Part shown: positions 3,566-59,609 of the stretch, piece after piece
Layout: each line of letters starts with the position of its first letter
Position numbering within the stretch: the first letter of the stretch is position 1
DNA from: an uncultured Saprospiraceae bacterium
GTDB taxonomy: Bacteria; Bacteroidota; Bacteroidia; Chitinophagales; Saprospiraceae
Assembly: GCA_937929945.1 (NCBI GenBank)
Contig: CALFUK010000055.1
Coordinates: forward strand, 1-64,000
Direction: 5' to 3'
Length of the DNA: 64,000 nucleotides
Made by a program: the position numbers and the translations under genes
Notes under the pieces: generated by a model
Told to the model about the DNA's origin: nothing
Seen by the model: the letters and a program-made list of their open reading frames with translations, nothing else
Database searches by the model: none

Positions 3566-3806
3566 AACGAGACCATATATGTTGAAATAGAAAATATTGC
3601 TTTCATTTGTTGCATGTAGATTTTAATAAATAAAAGGAAGCATTTGAGAATCGGGAAATAGTAATACGATTATAGCAATATTGGTCTTTCATGTGCTGCA
3701 TATAGTACTGAAAGAGAGAATATATTCAAGCCTGCATTATTTTAAATGACAGTACGATCATGACGGACTTACTGTCTTTTAAAAAAGACTTACTTATCTT
3801 AACGAA

Positions 3807-5084
3807 ATGAAAGTTCAAGATCGCAGACAATTCATTAAGGCCATAGGCATTGGAGCCACTTTACCTAAGATCCATACAGAGAAGCGGTTATCATTCGATC
3901 AAAACACACCCAATAATTTTGAAGGACGAAAGAAAGATAATTCTGAATCTTTCTGGAATCTGGTCCAATCACAATTTGTCTTTGCTCCTCAATTAAAGTA
4001 TTTTAATAATGCCTCATTAGGAGGCAGTCCTTTGACTGTTCAGCAAGCAACAACAACTGCAAGAAATACCTTAGATGGCTTTCCATCAAAATATATGTGG
4101 GGAGGTTGGGATGAAGAAAAAGAAAAAGTAAGAGGAAAAATAACAGACCTATTCTCTGTCTCAGCAGAAGAAATTGCTCTGATCCATAATACCACAGAAG
4201 GCATGAATTTAATAGCTAGGAGTTTTGATCTTAATCCTGGCGATGAAGTCATTTTGGCGGACCACGAACATACCTCAGGCCGCATTTGCTGGGAAGTATT
4301 CCAAGAGAGAAGGGGTGTTAAGATCGTCACGCCAGAGCTGCCCTTACTTCCTGAATGTATTGAAGATATTGTTGAGGTATATCGGCGAGCGATCAGTCCT
4401 CGGACGAAGATTATATCTATGTGCCACATTGTAAATACCAATGGCATGATACTACCCGTAAAAGAAATATCAGAGATGGCGCATGAGCGTGGGATATTGG
4501 TGGCGGTGGATGGAGCACAGTCAGCGGGCATGATCGATGTGGATTTGAAGGACTTGGGTTGTGACTTCTATACAGCGAGTGCTCATAAGTGGCTCTTCGC
4601 ACCTAAGGGTATCGGTATCCTCTATGCGAAGCAGTCAAACCAGCACCTGCTTCATCCGCTCATTGTCTGTCGAGGCCATCGAGATCATACCATCCGCCGC
4701 TTGGAGAATTACAATACCCGAAATCTGCCGGAGCTCTTAGGACTAGGAGCAGCTGTTGATTTTCACCATCAGATCGGCAGAAAAAAAATAGTTCAACGTG
4801 GCTATACTCTAAAGGCTTACTTCAGATCGAAAGTAGTCTCTCATCCAGCCTTCTTATTAAAGACACCTGCATCAGATGAGCTTTCATCAGCGATCCAAGT
4901 GGTAGAAGTCTTAGGCAAAGAAGTCCGGGATGCGAAGACTTATCTTTTTGAAGAGGGCCACATTGATTGTCGTCCAATGTCATCGTTTGGACTGAATGCA
5001 CTGCGCTTGTCCTTTGCTGTGTACATCACTAAGGAAGATGTGGATGAATTGGTGCATGATTTAGAAAGGTGTAGTCGGAGCTAA
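3807..5084 (+). CDS. Class V PLP-dependent aminotransferase (cysteine desulfurase/epimerase-like), possible Tat substrate
   Basis: A 425-residue fold-type I PLP enzyme. The N-terminus MKVQDRRQFIKAIGIGATLP has the RRxFIK twin-arginine pattern, although the hydrophobic core is short, so export is uncertain. The catalytic lysine is in SAHKWLFAPKG (about residue 261), and the cofactor aspartate is in AVDGAQSAGM. The best match is the aminotransferase class V group of isopenicillin-N-epimerase-like and cysteine-desulfurase-like proteins. The exact substrate cannot be told from sequence. It stands alone between the metalloprotease and the IS element, with no operon partner. An inverted repeat GTCTTTT-AA-AAAAGAC (3774-3789) lies just upstream. 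Confidence 0.75.
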   Translation: MKVQDRRQFIKAIGIGATLPKIHTEKRLSFDQNTPNNFEGRKKDNSESFWNLVQSQFVFAPQLKYFNNASLGGSPLTVQQATTTARNTLDGFPSKYMWGGWDEEKEKVRGKITDLFSVSAEEIALIHNTTEGMNLIARSFDLNPGDEVILADHEHTSGRICWEVFQERRGVKIVTPELPLLPECIEDIVEVYRRAISPRTKIISMCHIVNTNGMILPVKEISEMAHERGILVAVDGAQSAGMIDVDLKDLGCDFYTASAHKWLFAPKGIGILYAKQSNQHLLHPLIVCRGHRDHTIRRLENYNTRNLPELLGLGAAVDFHHQIGRKKIVQRGYTLKAYFRSKVVSHPAFLLKTPASDELSSAIQVVEVLGKEVRDAKTYLFEEGHIDCRPMSSFGLNALRLSFAVYITKEDVDELVHDLERCSRS

Positions 5085-53168: not shown

Positions 53169-53519
53169 TTATGCTGACTCATCCACGGGCGCCAGCTTCA
53201 CCACCAGCCCATTCAGCGCTGATGTGATGGGGAGCTGACAGCTTAGGCGGCTGTTATCTTCGACAAAGAAGGCTTGATCCAGCATGTCCTCTTCATCCTC
53301 TGACTGCTCAGGCAGCTCGTGGTCCGTCTGCACGTAGCAATGACAGGAGGCGCACAGCGCCATACCACCACAGGTGCCTTCTACTGGGAGCTCCGCCGCT
53401 CGGCAGATCTCCATCAGATTAAAACTCATGTCTGTAGGTGCTTCCAGCACATGCTCCGTCCCTTGCCGATCTATGACGGTCAGTGAGATCATATTTTCTT
53501 CCATACTATTCGAATCCAT
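53169..53519 (-). CDS. 2Fe-2S ferredoxin
   Basis: A 116-residue plant/adrenodoxin-type ferredoxin. Cluster ligands are in VEGTCGGMALCASCHCYV plus a later Cys (RLSCQLP). The start may be ATG 53504, which would avoid the 14-base overlap with the reductase gene. It is coupled to a ferredoxin-NADP reductase, and is the likely electron donor for the ferredoxin-dependent sulfite reductase upstream in the operon. Confidence 0.9.
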   Translation of the reverse strand: MDSNSMEENMISLTVIDRQGTEHVLEAPTDMSFNLMEICRAAELPVEGTCGGMALCASCHCYVQTDHELPEQSEDEEDMLDQAFFVEDNSRLSCQLPITSALNGLVVKLAPVDESA

Positions 53520-54513
53520 TAACCCCAGCTACAGTCGTGTATTTAAAACTGAGCTTCTGGTCAGGGTATATATACTTAAATGCAGACTGAGCCATGAGGG
53601 TTCCCTCGTGAAATCCACAGAGGATTAATTTCAGCTTGCCAGGGTAGGTATTGATATCACCGATGGCGTAGATGCCCTCCACATTCGTGCTGTAGTCTCT
53701 GGTATCCACAGCGATGGCACTGCGATCGATGGTCAGCCCCCATTCGGCGATGGGTCCCAGCTTTGGCGTCAAGCCGAAGAGCGGGATGAAGTAGTCGACT
53801 TGCTTGGTGAATTCGCCTTCAGATTTAGATTTGACGACGACTTCTTTGAGGATGCCATTACCGTTTACACCTATAGCTTGTGCCTCGGTGATTAGGTTTA
53901 CTTTATTTGTCTTAGCGAGCGCCATGACCTTGTCTACGCTATCCAGGGCTCCACGGAATGAGGTCCTGCGGTGGATCAGGGTGATCTCACTGGCAATGTC
54001 AGCCAGCTCGATAGTCCAATCTAGCGCTGAGTCTCCTCCACCTGCGATCAACAGTTTTTTATCTCTGAATTTTTCGGGATCCTTCACCATGTACTCCACA
54101 CCTTTACTCTCGTATTGGGCGAGTCCCTCGATGGGGGGCTTGCGTGGCTCGAAGCATCCCAGCCCTCCCGCGATGCAGATCACAGGGGCCTCTATGACGG
54201 TACCGTGACTGGTGGTCAGGCGGTATTTTTTCTCTTCTATTTTTTCTATTTTCTCGGCCCGCTCTCCCAAGGTGAATCCTGGGTTGAATGGCTTAATTTG
54301 TTCCATGAGATTATCTACAAGGTCGCCTGCAAGGATGCTCGGGTAGCCTGGGATATCGTAGATCGGCTTTTTGGGATATATCTCGCTGAGCTGACCACCG
54401 GCTATCGGCAGCGCATCGACGAGATGGCACCTGAGCTTGAGCAGGCCTGCTTCGAATACTGTGAAGAGGCCACATGGACCTGCGCCGATGATAAGTATGT
54501 CTGTCTGAATCAT
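53506..54513 (-). CDS. Ferredoxin-NADP+ reductase, thioredoxin-reductase-like type
   Basis: A 335-residue FAD/NAD(P) oxidoreductase. The FAD motif is IIGAGPCGLFTVFEAG, the NADP motif is LLIAGGGDSALDWTIEL, and the second FAD motif is IYAIGDINTYPGKLKLI. The CxxC of thioredoxin reductase is absent, and the C-terminal extension (YTTVAGVNGF) fits the YumC/ONFR-like FNR group. It overlaps the ferredoxin gene. Electron route: NADPH to ferredoxin to sulfite reductase. Confidence 0.88.
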   Translation of the reverse strand: MIQTDILIIGAGPCGLFTVFEAGLLKLRCHLVDALPIAGGQLSEIYPKKPIYDIPGYPSILAGDLVDNLMEQIKPFNPGFTLGERAEKIEKIEEKKYRLTTSHGTVIEAPVICIAGGLGCFEPRKPPIEGLAQYESKGVEYMVKDPEKFRDKKLLIAGGGDSALDWTIELADIASEITLIHRRTSFRGALDSVDKVMALAKTNKVNLITEAQAIGVNGNGILKEVVVKSKSEGEFTKQVDYFIPLFGLTPKLGPIAEWGLTIDRSAIAVDTRDYSTNVEGIYAIGDINTYPGKLKLILCGFHEGTLMAQSAFKYIYPDQKLSFKYTTVAGVNGFE

Positions 54514-54654: not shown

Positions 54655-55338
54655 CTAAAGGTGAATGCCGCATTCGGTTTTGGACTGGTCTGCCCACCTA
54701 CCTGATCTACCTTCTCCCTTCAGCGTGCAGTGCGTGCAGCCTACTGAGCCAAAGCCTTCCAGTTTCATCGGATGGATGGGGATGTCATTGTCTGCGAGGT
54801 ACATGTCAAACTGACTCGCGGAGGTGTCTATATTAGGATGCATCTTGATGATGGCACCTCTGCGTTCGAAGATGTTCAGGTTCTTGCGAAAGGGAGTCTG
54901 ATTCATCAGCAGGCCGGAGATCCAGATTTTCTTACCTGCTTTGTACGGTTCGAATGGTTTGATCTTATTCAGATTGCAGCATTTGTCTACGTCTGTCTCC
55001 CAGAGGGATACCTCTCTGGCCATCATGTTGTCCTGGACATCAGGCAGGATGTGGACGATGTTGAGCCCCAAGATATCAGTCAGTGCCTGCTTATATTCTA
55101 TCGTCTTCTTAAAGCAGAAGGTGGTATCGATGAAGTGTATGGGATGTCCGGGCGCGGCCTTACTCACCATACTCATCAAGATGCCTGATGTGGTCCCGAA
55201 GGATGAGGTCACCAGGATGTCCTCATGATCATAATCGGAAAATAGCTTCTGCAATCGCTGGATGGGATTCAGGGTTTGATAGTCGGCATTCAGCTGATCT
55301 ATGTCGATATCCTCCACGGCTTTTGAAATATCAGTCAT
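54655..55338 (-). CDS. cysH: APS/PAPS reductase
   Basis: A 227-residue adenylyl-sulfate reductase that makes sulfite from activated sulfate with thioredoxin-type reductant. A PP-loop-like SSFGTTSGILMSMV is followed by CC (in DKCCNLNKIKP) and CxxC (GCTHCT). These four Cys bind the 4Fe-4S cluster of APS reductases, so APS is the likelier substrate. The catalytic Cys is in the C-terminal KTECGIHL. The gene overlaps the upstream siroheme gene by 4 bases. Confidence 0.92.
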   Translation of the reverse strand: MTDISKAVEDIDIDQLNADYQTLNPIQRLQKLFSDYDHEDILVTSSFGTTSGILMSMVSKAAPGHPIHFIDTTFCFKKTIEYKQALTDILGLNIVHILPDVQDNMMAREVSLWETDVDKCCNLNKIKPFEPYKAGKKIWISGLLMNQTPFRKNLNIFERRGAIIKMHPNIDTSASQFDMYLADNDIPIHPMKLEGFGSVGCTHCTLKGEGRSGRWADQSKTECGIHL

Positions 55339-55967
55339 ACTTGCTTTTCAGATGTTAGTAGTGATGAAGTAATTTTGTTAAGCTCTTCTACTTTATGGGA
55401 GAAGTCACCCTTGAGTCGATCTCTGAAGATTTTAAGATTCTCTACAAGAGCGGCTGAGTCGTCAGGGAGCACCTCCTCTAAGACTTGGCGAAACCGCTTG
55501 GCGAATGTGGGCGACTTCCCATTCGTTGAGATGGCGACTTTCAGATTGCCACGGGTCACAATTGACCCCAGATAGAAATCACACAGCTCAGGCGTGTCTG
55601 CCACATTGATCAGTTTGCGCTGAGCCTTGGCGGCGGCGTACACTTCTTGATTCACCTCTGGAAAGTTAGTTGCTGCTACGATCAGGTCATAGTCATCCAC
55701 GTCACTCGCCTCGAACTTCCTCTGCTGCCAGGTGATCTGATAGGCCTCATTTGCGATCAGCTCCGATACCTCTTCTCGTGCCCATGGGGCTACGATAGTG
55801 ATGTTAGCATTGGGGCTGCTCTTCAGGATGAAAAACATCTTTTCGTAGCCCACTTCTCCAGCACCTACCACGAGCATCTGAAGCTTGTCCAGCTTGAAGA
55901 AGACAGGGTATAGCGGATTTTGATTCAGTGATTTGTCCATGTGCTGTTCGCTTTTTCTTTGATCCAA
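55335..55967 (-). CDS. Precorrin-2 dehydrogenase/sirohydrochlorin ferrochelatase
   Basis: A 210-residue Met8/CysG-N-like enzyme that completes siroheme, the sulfite reductase cofactor. Features are PVFFKLDKLQMLVVGAGEVG (NAD site), AATNFPEVNQ, and VAISTNGKSPTFAKRFRQ. The start may be ATG 55940 (MDKSLNQNPLYPV). It overlaps cobA upstream and cysH downstream, so the order methylase, dehydrogenase/chelatase, reductase is tightly coupled. Confidence 0.9.
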   Translation of the reverse strand: MDQRKSEQHMDKSLNQNPLYPVFFKLDKLQMLVVGAGEVGYEKMFFILKSSPNANITIVAPWAREEVSELIANEAYQITWQQRKFEASDVDDYDLIVAATNFPEVNQEVYAAAKAQRKLINVADTPELCDFYLGSIVTRGNLKVAISTNGKSPTFAKRFRQVLEEVLPDDSAALVENLKIFRDRLKGDFSHKVEELNKITSSLLTSEKQV

Positions 55968-56698
55968 TGGGGGTGGGACTGCACCACATCACCGATGACG
56001 ATGATGCCAGGCGTCCCAATCTGAGCTGCCTGTGACTTAGCTACGATGTCTTCTGCTGTGCCGATCACACATCTTTCATCAGCTCGGCTGCCACTCTGTA
56101 TGACCATCATAGCTTTGTGAGCCTGGCCTTCCAGCTTGATCATGTCTGCGATCATGGCCAGCTTTCTCATACCCATGAGGATGATCAGGGTGGCTCGGCT
56201 CTGCAGTGCGATCTCTATGTCTTGAGATATCTGATGATCCTTCGTGGAGCCTGTCAGCACCCAGAAGCTCTCACTGACGCCCCTGGAAGTCACTGGCACA
56301 CCTTGCAGTGCGGGCACAGAGATGGAGCTGGAGATGCCTGGCACGACACTGACTTCTATATCATGAGCCTTGATGTATTCTACTTCTTCCATACCTCGAC
56401 CAAAGACAAAAGGATCTCCGCCTTTGAGTCTGACCACATGGCCGTATTCATGAGCTGACTGTACGATTAGCTCATTGATTTCAGTCTGCTTTTTACAAGG
56501 CTGTCCAGCACGCTTACCTACGAATAGCTTGATGGTTTCCGCAGGCGTTTCATCCAGCAGGGCCTCATCGACGAGGGCATCATAGAGTACCACATCAGCT
56601 GACTGCAGTGCCCGCAGTCCTTTGACAGTGATCAGGTCTTTGTCTCCTGGGCCAGCTCCCACCAGCGTCACTTTTGCTTTTGTATCAAATGTCATCAT
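55925..56698 (-). CDS. cobA: Uroporphyrinogen-III C-methyltransferase
   Basis: A 257-residue SUMT that methylates uroporphyrinogen III to precorrin-2, the first step of siroheme synthesis. The motifs are LVGAGPGDKDLITVKGLRAL, VLYDALVD, RLKGGDPFVFGRG and GISSSISVPALQGVPVTSRG. Its ATG follows the sulfite reductase stop with no gap. In enterobacteria this domain is fused to the dehydrogenase (CysG); here they are separate genes. Confidence 0.93.
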   Translation of the reverse strand: MMTFDTKAKVTLVGAGPGDKDLITVKGLRALQSADVVLYDALVDEALLDETPAETIKLFVGKRAGQPCKKQTEINELIVQSAHEYGHVVRLKGGDPFVFGRGMEEVEYIKAHDIEVSVVPGISSSISVPALQGVPVTSRGVSESFWVLTGSTKDHQISQDIEIALQSRATLIILMGMRKLAMIADMIKLEGQAHKAMMVIQSGSRADERCVIGTAEDIVAKSQAAQIGTPGIIVIGDVVQSHPHWIKEKANSTWTNH

Positions 56699-58834
56699 CT
56701 AAGCTTTATAGTAGCTGCCTATGACCTCTTTATCTTCTGGGCTGGCACCTGAGGCGGTAGCTCTGTAGTCATAGACTTGTGTTAAAAATAGTTCGGCACC
56801 CGCGAGGTAGCCATTTACGAATGCTTCCGTCGGCTCTTGCTGCTTGATGGCCAGTGTCTCTTCTCTAAAGTCTTCTTGTGCAAACCACTTACCCGCTTCC
56901 ACAAATTTCTCCTGAAAGTCATTGATGATGTTGATCTGCGTGTTACAGCTGATGTCGTCAGCCAGCAGCAATGCTTTAGCTCCGATCACCCGAGAAGAAT
57001 AGGCAAAGTAGGCAGCTTCTGAAAGATGGCCCTGCTGAAGTGCTGCTTTGCCTTCGGCCAATCTCTCCGAGGCATCTTTGATGATGGTTCCGACCAGATC
57101 CAGTACCACTGCCGCACACTCGCCTACGCCGATCTCTTGCTTGTACTCATGTTCTTGACCCCAGTCAAAAAGATCAGTGTCTGATAGAAGCTCGATATTT
57201 GCGAGAGGTTTCAATAGCTCATAGAAATATTTCTTGCCCTGTCTTCTGTAGTAGTCATTGTAGTATTCACCTTCTGTCGCGTACTCGTCGTAGTCATTCA
57301 GCAGCATGCGGATACCGTCCAAGATTTTCTTAGTCGGCAGCTTGATCACCTTCTCTGCGATCCAGCCCTGGCCCGTGGGATCAGTGCCGCCACCGAGGAC
57401 CACCTGCATGGCAGGTATGACCAGGTCATTCTTTTTGATGGAGCTACCGCTGAAGCCAATATTAGCTACCATGTGTTGCCCGCAGGCATTCATACAGCCA
57501 CTGATTTTTATTTTGATGTGCTTCTCTTCTAAGTGTTCTGGATATTCGTCGGTGATCATGTCTTCGATCACGCGAGCCAGGCCAGTGCTGTTAGTCACAC
57601 CTAAGTTACAGGTGTCAGTCCCAGGACAGGCGGTGACATCTCCGATGGAGTCGTAGCCTGGATCTGCCATGCCAATCGACTGCAGTGCAGTGTAGAGTTC
57701 AGCTAAGTGATCTTCATGTACGAATCTCAATAATAGCCCTTGGTTAACTGTGATTCTTAGGTCCTGGGCGGCGTATTTTTGCAGGATGGGGACCAGCTCT
57801 CTCGCTTTGTCAGAGCTGATGTCTCCCAGCAGTACCTTGAGGTACACGCCGTAGTAGCCTGCTTGTTTTTGCTCGAAGGTGTTCGTCTTTTGCCACAGCT
57901 TGAAGGCTTGTACATCTTTAGCTTCTTTAATCTGTGGCTCAAAGTAGTTTACGGCTTCGTCTTGTTCGTAGTCAGCAGCGTTAATGGGGTAGCTCTGGTG
58001 CTGTAGTGATTTCCACTCTTCATTAACTAAGTCTAAAAAGCCCTCAATGCCCAGTTTTTTCACTAAGAATTTCATTCTGGCTTTCTGCCGCTTTGCCCGC
58101 TCTCCGTGCCGATCGAAGACGCGGAGGCTGGCCTCCATAAAGGGGATGATTTTATCTGTTTCTAAAAATTCATAAGCTGTCGGTGCGAATATGGCGATGG
58201 CACCCAGGCCTCCCCCGACTAAGACCTTGAAGCCTCTGACGCCATCTTTGATTTTAGGGATAAATCCAAAATCATGAAAATAGCTAAATGCCGTATCCGC
58301 ATCGCTGGAGGAAAAGCTGGGCTTAATCTTGCGCCCCATGTCTTGACAGATAGGATTGCGCAGGAAGTAGTAGGCAGTGGCATGAGCATAAGGCGTGATA
58401 TCGAATGGCTCAGCTGGATCAATACCTGCCGTGGGCGAGGCCGTCAGATTTCTGACCGTATTGCCGCAGGCCTCTCTGCCTGTCAGTCCATTATTCGTGA
58501 GTTCGAGCCACACTTTGGGTGAGTCTTCCAGTTTGACGTAGTGCAGCTGGATGTCTTGCCGCGTGGTGAGGTGCAGATTACTTGAGCCATACTGGTCAGC
58601 TGTATCGGCGATCACTTTGATTTGCTGGGGTGTGATCTTGCCGTAGGGCACTTTGATTCTAAACATCTGGACACCGAGCTGCCGCTGGCCATAGACGCCA
58701 CGGGTCAGGCGGTAGAGTTTGAATTTTTCTTCGTCTTCTTTGCCCGTGCGAAAGCCGTTGATTCTTTGCTCTAGCTCTACGATATCCTTGCGGTCTGCCG
58801 CTGCTATGTCTGGATACTCTGTGAATAAGCTCAT
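56699..58834 (-). CDS. Ferredoxin-dependent sulfite reductase with C-terminal helical extension
   Basis: About 711 residues from ATG 58834; the upstream frame to 58891 runs through the leader terminator and is rejected. It reduces sulfite to sulfide. Substrate/siroheme motifs are LTTRQDIQLHYV and GREACGNTVRNLTASPTAGI. The cluster cysteines lie in ACPGTDTCNLGV and SGCMNACGQH. About 163 C-terminal residues beyond the normal end form a helical, HEPN-like domain (ECAAVVLDLVGTIIKDASER, then YFAYSSRVIGAKALLLAD), a known Bacteroidota variant. It is the first structural gene after the tandem cysteine leaders. Confidence 0.92.
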   Translation of the reverse strand: MSLFTEYPDIAAADRKDIVELEQRINGFRTGKEDEEKFKLYRLTRGVYGQRQLGVQMFRIKVPYGKITPQQIKVIADTADQYGSSNLHLTTRQDIQLHYVKLEDSPKVWLELTNNGLTGREACGNTVRNLTASPTAGIDPAEPFDITPYAHATAYYFLRNPICQDMGRKIKPSFSSSDADTAFSYFHDFGFIPKIKDGVRGFKVLVGGGLGAIAIFAPTAYEFLETDKIIPFMEASLRVFDRHGERAKRQKARMKFLVKKLGIEGFLDLVNEEWKSLQHQSYPINAADYEQDEAVNYFEPQIKEAKDVQAFKLWQKTNTFEQKQAGYYGVYLKVLLGDISSDKARELVPILQKYAAQDLRITVNQGLLLRFVHEDHLAELYTALQSIGMADPGYDSIGDVTACPGTDTCNLGVTNSTGLARVIEDMITDEYPEHLEEKHIKIKISGCMNACGQHMVANIGFSGSSIKKNDLVIPAMQVVLGGGTDPTGQGWIAEKVIKLPTKKILDGIRMLLNDYDEYATEGEYYNDYYRRQGKKYFYELLKPLANIELLSDTDLFDWGQEHEYKQEIGVGECAAVVLDLVGTIIKDASERLAEGKAALQQGHLSEAAYFAYSSRVIGAKALLLADDISCNTQINIINDFQEKFVEAGKWFAQEDFREETLAIKQQEPTEAFVNGYLAGAELFLTQVYDYRATASGASPEDKEVIGSYYKA

Positions 58835-58867
58835 TTTAACTTTGTTTTTTAATTTAATGGATCGCAT

Positions 58868-58902
58868 AAAAAAACCCTTCCAGATGATCAAGTCTGGAAG
58901 GG
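58868..58902 (-). terminator. Attenuator terminator 2 in the sulfur operon leader
   Basis: Stem CCCTTCCAGA / TCTGGAAGGG (10 bp, 8-base loop CTTGATCA), followed by seven T on the minus strand. It lies 31 bases after the stop of the second Cys-rich leader ORF and 33 bases before the sulfite reductase start. It can only serve to stop readthrough into the operon. Confidence 0.93.
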
Positions 58903-58963
58903 CTAATTAGAATGCGTTTTATATTCTATAATTTCAACCTAACAGATGATCTATCATGATCAT
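58885..58963 (-). promoter_or_regulatory. Candidate 1:2 / 2:3 antiterminator pairing in leader 2
   Basis: Segment 1 AUGAUC (58963-58958) pairs with segment 2 GAUCAU (58951-58946). Segment 2 extended, GAUCAUCUGUUAGG (58951-58938), can instead pair with the 5' arm and loop of the terminator in three blocks: GAUCA with UGAUC, UCUG with CAGA, and AGG with CCU. This totals 12 pairs and excludes the terminator. Segment 1 begins right after the Cys codon run. Pairing was read by eye, not by energy calculation. Confidence 0.6.
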
Positions 58964-59017
58964 ACAGCAGCAACAACAGCATGCAGTACAACAAATATTC
59001 AGCTTAGATTTTCTCAT
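58934..59017 (-). CDS. Cysteine-rich leader peptide 2
   Basis: A 27-residue ORF. It begins MRKSKLNICCTA, continues with six Cys codons (TGC TGT TGT TGC TGC TGT, 58981-58964) and ends MIMIDHLLG before TGA. In the Cys run the bases vary only T/C at the third position, as expected if the Cys reading is selected. It is followed by a terminator and then the sulfite reductase gene. Likely role: ribosomes stall at the Cys run when Cys-tRNA is scarce. Confidence 0.85.
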   Translation of the reverse strand: MRKSKLNICCTACCCCCCMIMIDHLLG

Positions 59018-59120
59018 ATGATTTTATTTTTAAGTGGAAATGCCTGTCAGAAAATAAGTAAGCTTACCGGTCATTTGGTGCCTTAATTATTGCCATCATT
59101 GACTTTTCTTTCATCACTCA
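59018..59120 (-). other. Spacer between terminator 1 and leader 2
   Basis: About 103 bases. No TAnnTTTG box was found on the minus strand here, so leader 2 most likely depends on readthrough of terminator 1 from the promoter at 59279-59310. Confidence 0.5.
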
Positions 59121-59162
59121 AATAAAAAAACGCCTTTCCGAATGTGCTTCAGAAAGGCGTTT
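59121..59162 (-). terminator. Attenuator terminator 1 in the sulfur operon leader
   Basis: Stem AAACGCCTTTC / GAAAGGCGTTT (11 bp, 13-base loop), followed by a T-run on the minus strand. It starts 44 bases after the stop of the first Cys-rich leader ORF. Its arms do not resemble those of terminator 2, so the two units are not a simple recent duplication. Confidence 0.93.
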
Positions 59163-59205
59163 GATTTATTCTATGGATAGAAAAAATAGCTAGCTCACTG
59201 TCGCA

Positions 59206-59268
59206 TCATTGCACGAGGCAACAACAGCAACAACAACAAGCCATTAAATTTCTATCGTTTTGATTCAT
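59206..59268 (-). CDS. Cysteine-rich leader peptide 1
   Basis: A 20-residue ORF: MNQNDRNLMA, seven consecutive Cys codons (TGT TGT TGT TGC TGT TGT TGC, 59238-59218), then LVQ and TGA. Only the third codon base varies within the run. It begins about 10 bases after a consensus promoter, so it is close to leaderless. A strong terminator follows. Likely a cysteine-sensing leader for the sulfur operon. Confidence 0.85.
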   Translation of the reverse strand: MNQNDRNLMACCCCCCCLVQ

Positions 59269-59278
59269 AACTATAAAA

Positions 59279-59310
59279 CAAAAGTAGACAGAAATAATAC
59301 ACGGAACAAA
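59279..59310 (-). promoter_or_regulatory. Bacteroidota promoter of the sulfur operon
   Basis: On the minus strand TTTG (59310-59307), 20 bases, then TACTTTTG (59286-59279): an exact match to TTTG-N19/20-TAnnTTTG. The predicted transcription start is about 59272-59274, a few bases before the ATG of leader 1. Confidence 0.8.
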
Positions 59311-59609
59311 CTATACCATATAAAATAATACACTCAGCTACAAAAATGTCGCTTGGCGGAACATGACACGATCATAATAAGTCAGGAGCCATAGCTGCAG
59401 CGGAGACGTTCTAACTCGCTCTTTATATGGTGGCCCCTTGAGCTTTTGGACCATCTAGTAGTGCTGATTCTTCGCTTGTGAGCATTTTAAGAGGAGACAT
59501 GATCTCGAGTAAAAAGAAGATTACTATATTGAGACAGGAGGCAGCCCATCATGCAGCTGGATGTTGATCTCCATCGTTGACTTGATACATTATTTATCAA
59601 TGGGATTAT
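59311..59609. other. Upstream region of the ComM-like gene
   Basis: About 300 bases between the sulfur promoter and the plus-strand ATPase gene. No gene, repeat or clear promoter box was seen. Confidence 0.4.

Follow-up and report, generated by a model that had tools for sequence, protein, structure and literature searches.

Putative Tandem Poly-Cysteine Attenuators Upstream of sir and Other Genes in Saprospiraceae

The window, i.e., the whole stretch of 64,000 nucleotides analyzed here, comes from a member of the Saprospiraceae, a family placed in Saprospirales, Bacteroidota. On its minus strand, from 59310 to 58834, the elements follow one another in the order promoter, ORF1, T1, ORF2, T2, and the ATG of sir (58834), and the genes listed in Table 1 lie downstream. 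For Sir, all listed NCBIfam matches, whether of the nitrite or the sulfite type, remained below their cut-offs; that its substrate is sulfite is inferred from the neighboring cysH and siroheme genes. The thioredoxin-reductase-like flavoprotein is possibly a ferredoxin reductase, and the 2Fe-2S ferredoxin-like protein is a possible electron donor, both roles being inferred. Sir, the siroheme genes, and cysH belong to the cysteine pathway, which is what a cysteine attenuator upstream of them demands of its regulated genes.

Table 1. Coordinates of the promoter, leader elements, and genes at the sir locus of the window.
Feature	Coordinates	Strand	Description	Basis
Bacteroidota-type promoter	59279..59310	−	TTTG (59310–59307), 20-nt spacer, TACTTTTG (59286–59279)	Exact match by script
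Leader ORF 1	59206..59268	−	Peptide MNQNDRNLMACCCCCCCLVQ; 7 consecutive Cys codons (59238–59218)	Sequence; tandem counterparts in relatives
Predicted antiterminator 5′ strand, leader 1	59188..59209	−	Partner 59159–59143 in T1	
Terminator T1	59128..59162	−	15 pairs, loop of 5, then U tract TTTTATTTG	
Leader ORF 2	58934..59017	−	Peptide MRKSKLNICCTACCCCCCMIMIDHLLG; 8 Cys codons, 6 of them consecutive (58981–58964)	
Predicted antiterminator 5′ strand, leader 2	58937..58952	−	Partner 58902–58885 in T2	
Terminator T2	58873..58904	−	12 pairs, loop of 8, then U tract	
sir	56699..58834	−	Nitrite/sulfite reductase-type hemoprotein, first structural gene	Pfam NIR_SIR and NIR_SIR_ferr above cut-off
Uroporphyrinogen-III C-methyltransferase gene	55925..56698	−	CobA / CysG C-terminal type	Above family cut-off
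Siroheme synthase N-terminal domain protein gene	55335..55967	−	CysG N-terminal type	TIGR01470 above cut-off
cysH	54655..55338	−	Phosphoadenylyl-sulfate reductase	NF002537 above cut-off
Flavoprotein gene	53506..54513	−	Thioredoxin-reductase-like flavoprotein	No listed family above cut-off
Ferredoxin-like protein gene	53169..53519	−	2Fe-2S ferredoxin-like protein	Matches below cut-off

The first-pass annotation of this DNA had described one consensus promoter followed by leader, terminator, leader, terminator, and the sulfite reductase gene, with seven consecutive Cys codons in leader 1 and six in leader 2. Both descriptions hold in the sequence, and the promoter is of the Bacteroidota type, whose consensus is −33 TTTG / −7 TANNTTTG. 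The −7 box of the window, TACTTTTG, ends 10 nt 5′ of the ORF1 ATG. Folding of 59275–59110 gave a z value of −6.8, which none of 200 shuffles equaled, and folding of 59030–58865 gave −2.9, equaled by 2 of 200. ORF1 has 12 nt and ORF2 has 30 nt between the end of its Cys run and the end of its stop codon; in relatives, the medians range from 15 to 39 nt depending on gene class and position. No Rfam family, leader or riboswitch, exceeded its gathering score in the window, and all seven matches at E ≤ 1 within 58800–59340 were below it (e.g., Phe_leader, 24.3 of 55 bits). A sigma-70 promoter scan placed its top minus-strand match (10/12) at 59050–59021, between T1 and ORF2. This match was set aside as a promoter, since in the 63 tandem loci described below the Bacteroidota motif shows enrichment upstream of leader 1 and not of leader 2; a weak internal promoter between T1 and ORF2 of the window is not excluded.

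Sir was sought in 298 Saprospiraceae genomes, of which 106 were positive at E ≤ 1e-100, and the upstream region could be read in 100 of these, the remaining six matches being partial or starting at a contig end. A poly-Cys leader was defined as a short ORF with an ATG start and at least three consecutive Cys codons, up to 750 nt upstream of sir. Among the 93 sir loci with at least 450 nt of upstream sequence, 42 have two leaders, 30 have one, and 21 have none, so that the conservation of Cys runs in relatives, on which the first-pass annotation had staked its proposal, passes that test. With a limit of 1000 nt, the counts become 42, 33, and 18, because in three loci of one genus the leader lies about 1 kb upstream, before cysH. 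The statistics on terminators, leader differences, antiterminators, and promoter motifs exclude leaders lying further than 750 nt from sir. Counted by genus at sir (n = 46), 23 include a genome with two leaders, 13 show at most one, and 10 show none. When 42 loci with a single leader were searched for another one under relaxed criteria, candidates turned up in two. By script, a terminator was identified after 156 of 168 leaders, termination itself being inferred. The Cys runs mix TGT and TGC in 150 of the 168 leaders and the peptides are distinct in 167, which indicates that selection acts on the amino acid. Outside the family sample, 80 named Bacteroidota loci were read over as much as 1500 nt before sir, the available stretch being short in some; seven have two poly-Cys ORFs, 11 have one, and 62 have none, and a terminator is absent after some of these ORFs. 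One of the seven is Marinoscillum furvescens (Cytophagales), where only the second leader was found to be followed by a terminator. Comparison of these sequences thus supports conservation of the leader–terminator–leader–terminator–gene order and of its link with cysteine genes.

Several relatives depart from this arrangement. In L082, L088, L128, L216, L222, and L224, the Cys run lies at the stop codon or one to two codons before it (e.g., ...MCCCCCC*), and no terminator was found. By analogy with the mycobacterial layout, which this form resembles, its action may be on translation. In L216, L222, and L224, about 1 kb upstream of sir, the leader lies 5′ of the PAPS reductase (cysH) gene, which is followed by sir. 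In L050, a gene for an Rrf2-family regulator (3758–4222, minus strand; Pfam PF02082 above cut-off) adjoins a leaderless sir on its upstream side, and this protein regulator possibly substitutes for the attenuators. In L048, a terminator-like segment was seen by eye in about three partial copies at approximately 1024–1210, between T1 and ORF2, as if pieces of an attenuator were multiplying through local duplication.

The first-pass annotation had also read the layout as amino acid attenuation directed at cysteine. This reading gains support from antiterminators that are specific to each leader across relatives, that of window leader 1 being weak. In a first set of 35 leaders, the segment between the Cys run and the terminator pairs with the 5′ arm and loop of its own terminator at a mean of −13.2 kcal/mol, compared with −9.0 kcal/mol for those of others, an advantage that none of 20,000 permutations reached. 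Reversed segments averaged −9.6. In dinucleotide shuffles, 34 of the 35 leaders gave a negative z, 20 were below p = 0.05, and none of 300 shuffled sets reached the mean. The remaining 15 leaders were individually non-significant, L079 being worse than shuffled, and in L076, L079, and L085 pairing with the own terminator was worse than the average with others. The enlarged set comprised 92 of the 156 leaders, with a single one kept for each combination of genus, gene class, position, and leader number. Here, own pairing was −14.6 kcal/mol against −9.6 kcal/mol for swapped pairs (z −19.2; 0 of 20,000 permutations), and 90 of the 92 leaders exceeded the own pairing expected after row and column correction. 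Specific antiterminators are present at both leader positions, for sir and cysM separately. Among 34 pairs of leaders within one genome, segment 1 favors T1 over T2 in 27 and the reverse holds in six, while segment 2 favors T2 over T1 in 31, with three reversed; the two are thus separate switches. The pairing core starts at a median of 13 nt (leader 1) and 12.5 nt (leader 2) past the Cys run, approximately where, by inference, a ribosome stalled on the run would have its leading edge.

A folding model in which the ribosome acts as a mask was used to estimate the sequestered share of the 5′ arm of the terminator. Over the 92 leaders, this share was 0.68 with the ribosome at the last Cys codon and 0.16 with the ribosome at the stop codon, and the difference exceeded 0.1 in all 92. 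Shuffled segments gave 0.34 with the ribosome at the last Cys codon and 0.26 with it at the stop codon; a minor share of the drop is therefore trivial, since less upstream RNA remains at the stop codon. Without a ribosome, sequestration was intermediate (0.51), which leaves the default state unsettled, and no difference between leaders 1 and 2 was seen in the mean default values (0.49 and 0.50). Pairing of the 1:2 type reaches 0.95 in window leader 1; as a general default state it was dropped, its mean across leaders being only 0.19. For the window itself, the sequence-based prediction of an antiterminator is clear for leader 2 and weak for leader 1. The leader 2 segment pairs with its own terminator at −13.6, better than with any of 34 other terminators (shuffle p 0.027), with 0.70 of the arm sequestered on stalling and 0.07 at the stop codon. 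The leader 1 segment pairs at −10.4, with a mean of −7.2 for other terminators, two of 34 being better (shuffle p 0.17), and the sequestered share is 0.45 on stalling and 0.11 at the stop codon.

Within 75 nt upstream of leader 1, TANNTTTG occurs in 24 of 63 tandem loci (4.0 in shuffles, sd 2.0), compared with three of 63 upstream of leader 2 (3.8 in shuffles, sd 1.8). Accompanied by TTG or TTTG at the right distance, it is found 21 times before leader 1 and once before leader 2. Enrichment of the promoter motif before leader 1 only indicates that the leaders act in series; 39 of the 63 loci lack the exact TANNTTTG upstream of leader 1. In the 24 loci that bear it, the median distance from the −7 box to the ATG is 17 nt. 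In 26 of 58 tandem loci, no more than 30 nt separate the end of T1 from the ORF2 ATG, and in three of these the ORF2 ATG even precedes the T1 end; such a gap is too short to hold another promoter downstream of T1. The window has a gap of 110 nt.

Over 36 genus-by-gene pairs, the two stages also differ systematically. The Cys codons of leader 2 outnumber those of leader 1 in 25 pairs and are fewer in six (p 2e-4). The distance between the leader 2 Cys run and its stop codon is longer in 32 pairs and shorter in three (p 6e-7), and its stop codon is nearer to the terminator in 28 pairs, with four showing the opposite (p 6e-6). Single leaders resemble leader 2 in these distances without sharing its higher Cys number; from this match, stage 1 is perhaps an added, specialized front stage. 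It may be leakier, or tuned to ribosome loading near the 5′ end. Layout, conservation, specific complementarity, the restriction of the promoter to leader 1, and the asymmetry of the leaders are all established at the level of comparison between genomes.

The same layout occurs at other genes. Bare TGY ×5 was rejected as a search signature because it is unspecific (59 of 60 relatives), and it was replaced by a Cys run plus terminator and by reading of upstream regions. From the pattern searches, 50 loci were read (30 + 20; nine at places already covered), and 42 of them have a short ORF with at least four consecutive Cys codons followed by a terminator, the other eight being without it. The targets other than sir are cysM-type cysteine synthases, cysH, a peroxiredoxin together with a synthase, a weak JAB-domain match, RimK-like ATP-grasp proteins, and a 2-oxoacid:ferredoxin oxidoreductase-type protein, and several of them carry tandem leaders. 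The cysM-type synthases are above the PALP cut-off, and their best NCBIfam model is cysM, below its cut-off. A cysteine synthase query identified 48 places in 47 of 296 genomes. Within 1000 nt upstream of the 30 best of these 48, two leaders are present at 21 loci, one at eight, and none at one; the pair at L306, counted here as cysM, lies before a peroxiredoxin gene, with the synthase coming after it. The peroxiredoxin, RimK-like, and 2-oxoacid oxidoreductase targets have no clear place in the cysteine pathway.

Individual loci among these targets are of interest in themselves. At L243/L277, tandem poly-Cys leaders precede a peroxiredoxin gene that directly adjoins a cysteine synthase-like gene, a layout that would link peroxide defense with cysteine supply. 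At L250/L272, a poly-Cys leader and terminator lie 5′ of the weak JAB-domain match (below the Pfam cut-off), with a ThiF-rhodanese gene further on, and at L259, L265, and L242/L278 they lie 5′ of RimK-like ATP-grasp or 2-oxoacid:ferredoxin oxidoreductase-type genes. The JAB-domain, RimK-like, and 2-oxoacid oxidoreductase-type targets are possible new cysteine-linked genes. In the genome of the window, none of 11 PALP-family places has an upstream short ORF with three consecutive Cys codons, two of them having an upstream ORF with two consecutive Cys codons and no terminator, and no match to the cysM query was found at 1e-80. In this genome, the device is therefore known only at sir. As predicted from sequence, the layout shared by sir, cysM-type genes, cysH, and others is a regulon. 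This regulon, the systematic difference between leaders 1 and 2, and the antiterminators predicted across relatives go beyond the first-pass annotation.

It is considered highly probable that two transcription attenuators, each complete and ribosome-mediated, follow one another on a single transcript of the locus, both reading the charging of tRNA-Cys. With ample cysteine, the ribosome would pass the Cys run, reach the leader stop codon, and mask the antiterminator strand, allowing the terminator to form. With scarce cysteine, it would stall within the Cys run, its leading edge just 5′ of the antiterminator strand; the freed strand, about 12–13 nt past the run, would pair with the 5′ arm and loop of its own terminator, and RNA polymerase would read through. 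Leader 2 would be transcribed only once T1 had been passed, and its decision would be an independent second sample. Readthrough into the operon would be the product of two cysteine-dependent probabilities, so that leakage would be low and the response steeper. Within the family, sir, cysM-type cysteine synthase genes, cysH, and associated genes are preceded by this device in one copy or two. Translation of the leaders, stalling, the response to cysteine, and multiplication are inferred, as there are no expression, ribosome-profiling, or 3′-end data.

An evenly balanced case can be made for a wider proposal, namely, a Saprospiraceae cysteine regulon controlled through two-stage attenuators with specialized leaders. 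The promoter-proximal stage, short, poorer in Cys codons, and stopping early, would be followed by a longer, Cys-richer stage whose ORF covers the antiterminator strand. Together they would form a built-in multiplicative, steep tRNA-Cys switch; as far as searched, no earlier case is known in which translating ribosomes that gate transcription read a single amino acid two times in a row. Doubling is not essential, as 21 of 93 sir loci are leaderless and 30 have a single leader. Its absence at sir from half of the genera, together with the leaderless PALP genes of the window genome, calls for caution about its importance.

The existence of single leaders (30 of 93 sir loci and eight of 30 cysM loci) would also fit an arrangement in which only one leader functions, the second being a spare or a duplicate in decay, and doubling has no role of its own. 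In line with this, the antiterminator of window leader 1 is the weaker one, and single leaders share the distances of leader 2. Yet specific antiterminators occur at both positions, for sir and cysM separately, doubling recurs at unrelated genes, and the leaders differ in a consistent direction over the 36 genus-by-gene pairs, which is unexpected for decaying copies. A single functional leader is thus regarded as unlikely, and two working stages remain the preferred interpretation.

Translation attenuation of the mycobacterial type, in which stalling at the Cys run alters access to the start of the next gene and the hairpins are incidental, appears more improbable still. The cysteine genes of mycobacteria, specifically of M. 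smegmatis, are cited as being under this form of control in the accessible part of one report (PMC13236596), and another, as far as it could be consulted, describes no conserved terminator hairpins there (PMC1262725). The relatives noted above with Cys runs at or near the stop codon and no terminator found (L082, L088, L128, L216, L222, and L224) would also agree with such control. However, terminators follow 156 of the 168 leaders, the exposed segment pairs specifically with the terminator, and the last terminator ends at a median of 47.5 nt 5′ of the gene start.

Very Cys-rich short peptides can bind metals, as is generally known, and the peptides might be made for their own sake, for metal or thiol binding or as precursors of a modified peptide, their position being incidental. 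This is judged very improbable, given that 167 of 168 peptides differ, that every one of them goes with an antiterminator and terminator of its own, and that they precede cysteine genes.

Bare TGY ×5 is frequent in relatives (59 of 60 genomes), as chance or a low-complexity artifact would have it. In the whole 5.07 Mb genome of the window, however, TGY ×5 forms only three clusters (seven overlapping matches), of which two are the ORF1 and ORF2 leaders, and the probability that two of three randomly thrown clusters fall inside one 450-nt sense window is about 1e-8. The third cluster, on contig C134, has no short ORF with four consecutive Cys codons. When this and 29 loci of relatives were read, five of the 30 had a short ORF with four consecutive Cys codons, and the two of these with a terminator are both 5′ of sir. 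The Cys-run-plus-terminator pattern gave 70 matches in 51 of 296 family genomes, compared with nine for the reversed pattern, and a poly-His analogue with a shorter gap matched seven of 199 genomes, those sites themselves being unread. On the opposite strands, the same ORF definition yielded none in about 96 kb upstream of sir and one at the 30 best of the 48 cysM-type loci. On this comparative evidence of conservation, a chance or artifactual origin of the Cys leaders would be scarcely conceivable and can be taken as already refuted.

In the open-license literature, no serial transcription attenuators reading one amino acid and no poly-Cys or cysteine attenuators in Bacteroidota were found. 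The statement of the first-pass annotation that no tandem version had been described in Bacteroidota therefore stands for these papers, most subscription papers being outside the search. The available part of a report on Flavobacterium psychrophilum gives clues for leader-peptide attenuation of amino acid operons (PMC9723704), and that of another paper contains nothing on cysteine (PMC4833913). Amino acid attenuation, a textbook mechanism, is usually described as one leader and one decision, also in the excerpt available of one paper (PMC3641672). The tandem form reported here, at several genes, in many genera, and with non-identical stages, offers a natural test of whether a metabolic response becomes sharper when ribosome-gated terminators follow one another. 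To the amino acids apparently sensed by attenuation in Bacteroidota it adds cysteine, accompanied by terminators and antiterminators. The search signature of a Cys run, antiterminator, and terminator, repeated, also yields candidate cysteine-regulated genes without other data.

The leaders of the trp, his, and leu operons of Proteobacteria are examples of Trp/His-type ribosome-mediated transcription attenuation, with which the present loci share a residue-rich leader peptide, an antiterminator exposed by stalling, and an intrinsic terminator before a biosynthesis operon. Indeed, a leader ORF with consecutive codons, an intrinsic terminator, a mutually exclusive antiterminator, and pathway genes are all present in the sequence, translation being inferred. 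The differences are that cysteine is sensed, that there are two complete serial copies differing systematically, and that a Bacteroidota promoter lies near the first ORF. Doubled sensors of a single ligand are likewise found in tandem riboswitches and T-boxes, but these are RNA aptamers or tRNA-binding RNA, whereas here the sensor would be the translating ribosome. Poly-Cys ORFs of mycobacteria are reportedly leaderless and cysteine-responsive, going by the title of a 2020 study by Canestrari. Among Actinobacteria, poly-Cys leaders are described, in the portion of the source available, ahead of the cys operons in mycobacteria and in Propionibacterium acnes and ahead of cbs in Bifidobacterium longum, with the Cys run near the leader stop codon (PMC1262725). 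These leaders share a run of Cys codons in a short ORF 5′ of cysteine genes; the leaders described here differ in having terminators (156 of 168) and antiterminators and in being often paired. The ermB gene is preceded by two leader peptides, ermBL and ermBL2, with a single inducing signal (PMC8274638), but its control is antibiotic-induced translation attenuation without an amino acid, and the part of that source available does not mention two separate terminators. The rimP leader has a tandem second terminator in some Gammaproteobacteria, the upstream one of the two with a potential antiterminator, but no leader peptide or amino acid signal is named in the excerpt available (PMC2965389). In the mgtCBR operon of Salmonella, as described in the accessible part of the report, tandem attenuators sense ATP and proline with additive effect (PMC3641672). 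The two systems have in common that a single mRNA leader holds two serial leader ORFs, each making a decision of its own, but mgtCBR senses two different signals, whereas both leaders carry Cys codons here and the same signal would be expected to be read twice.
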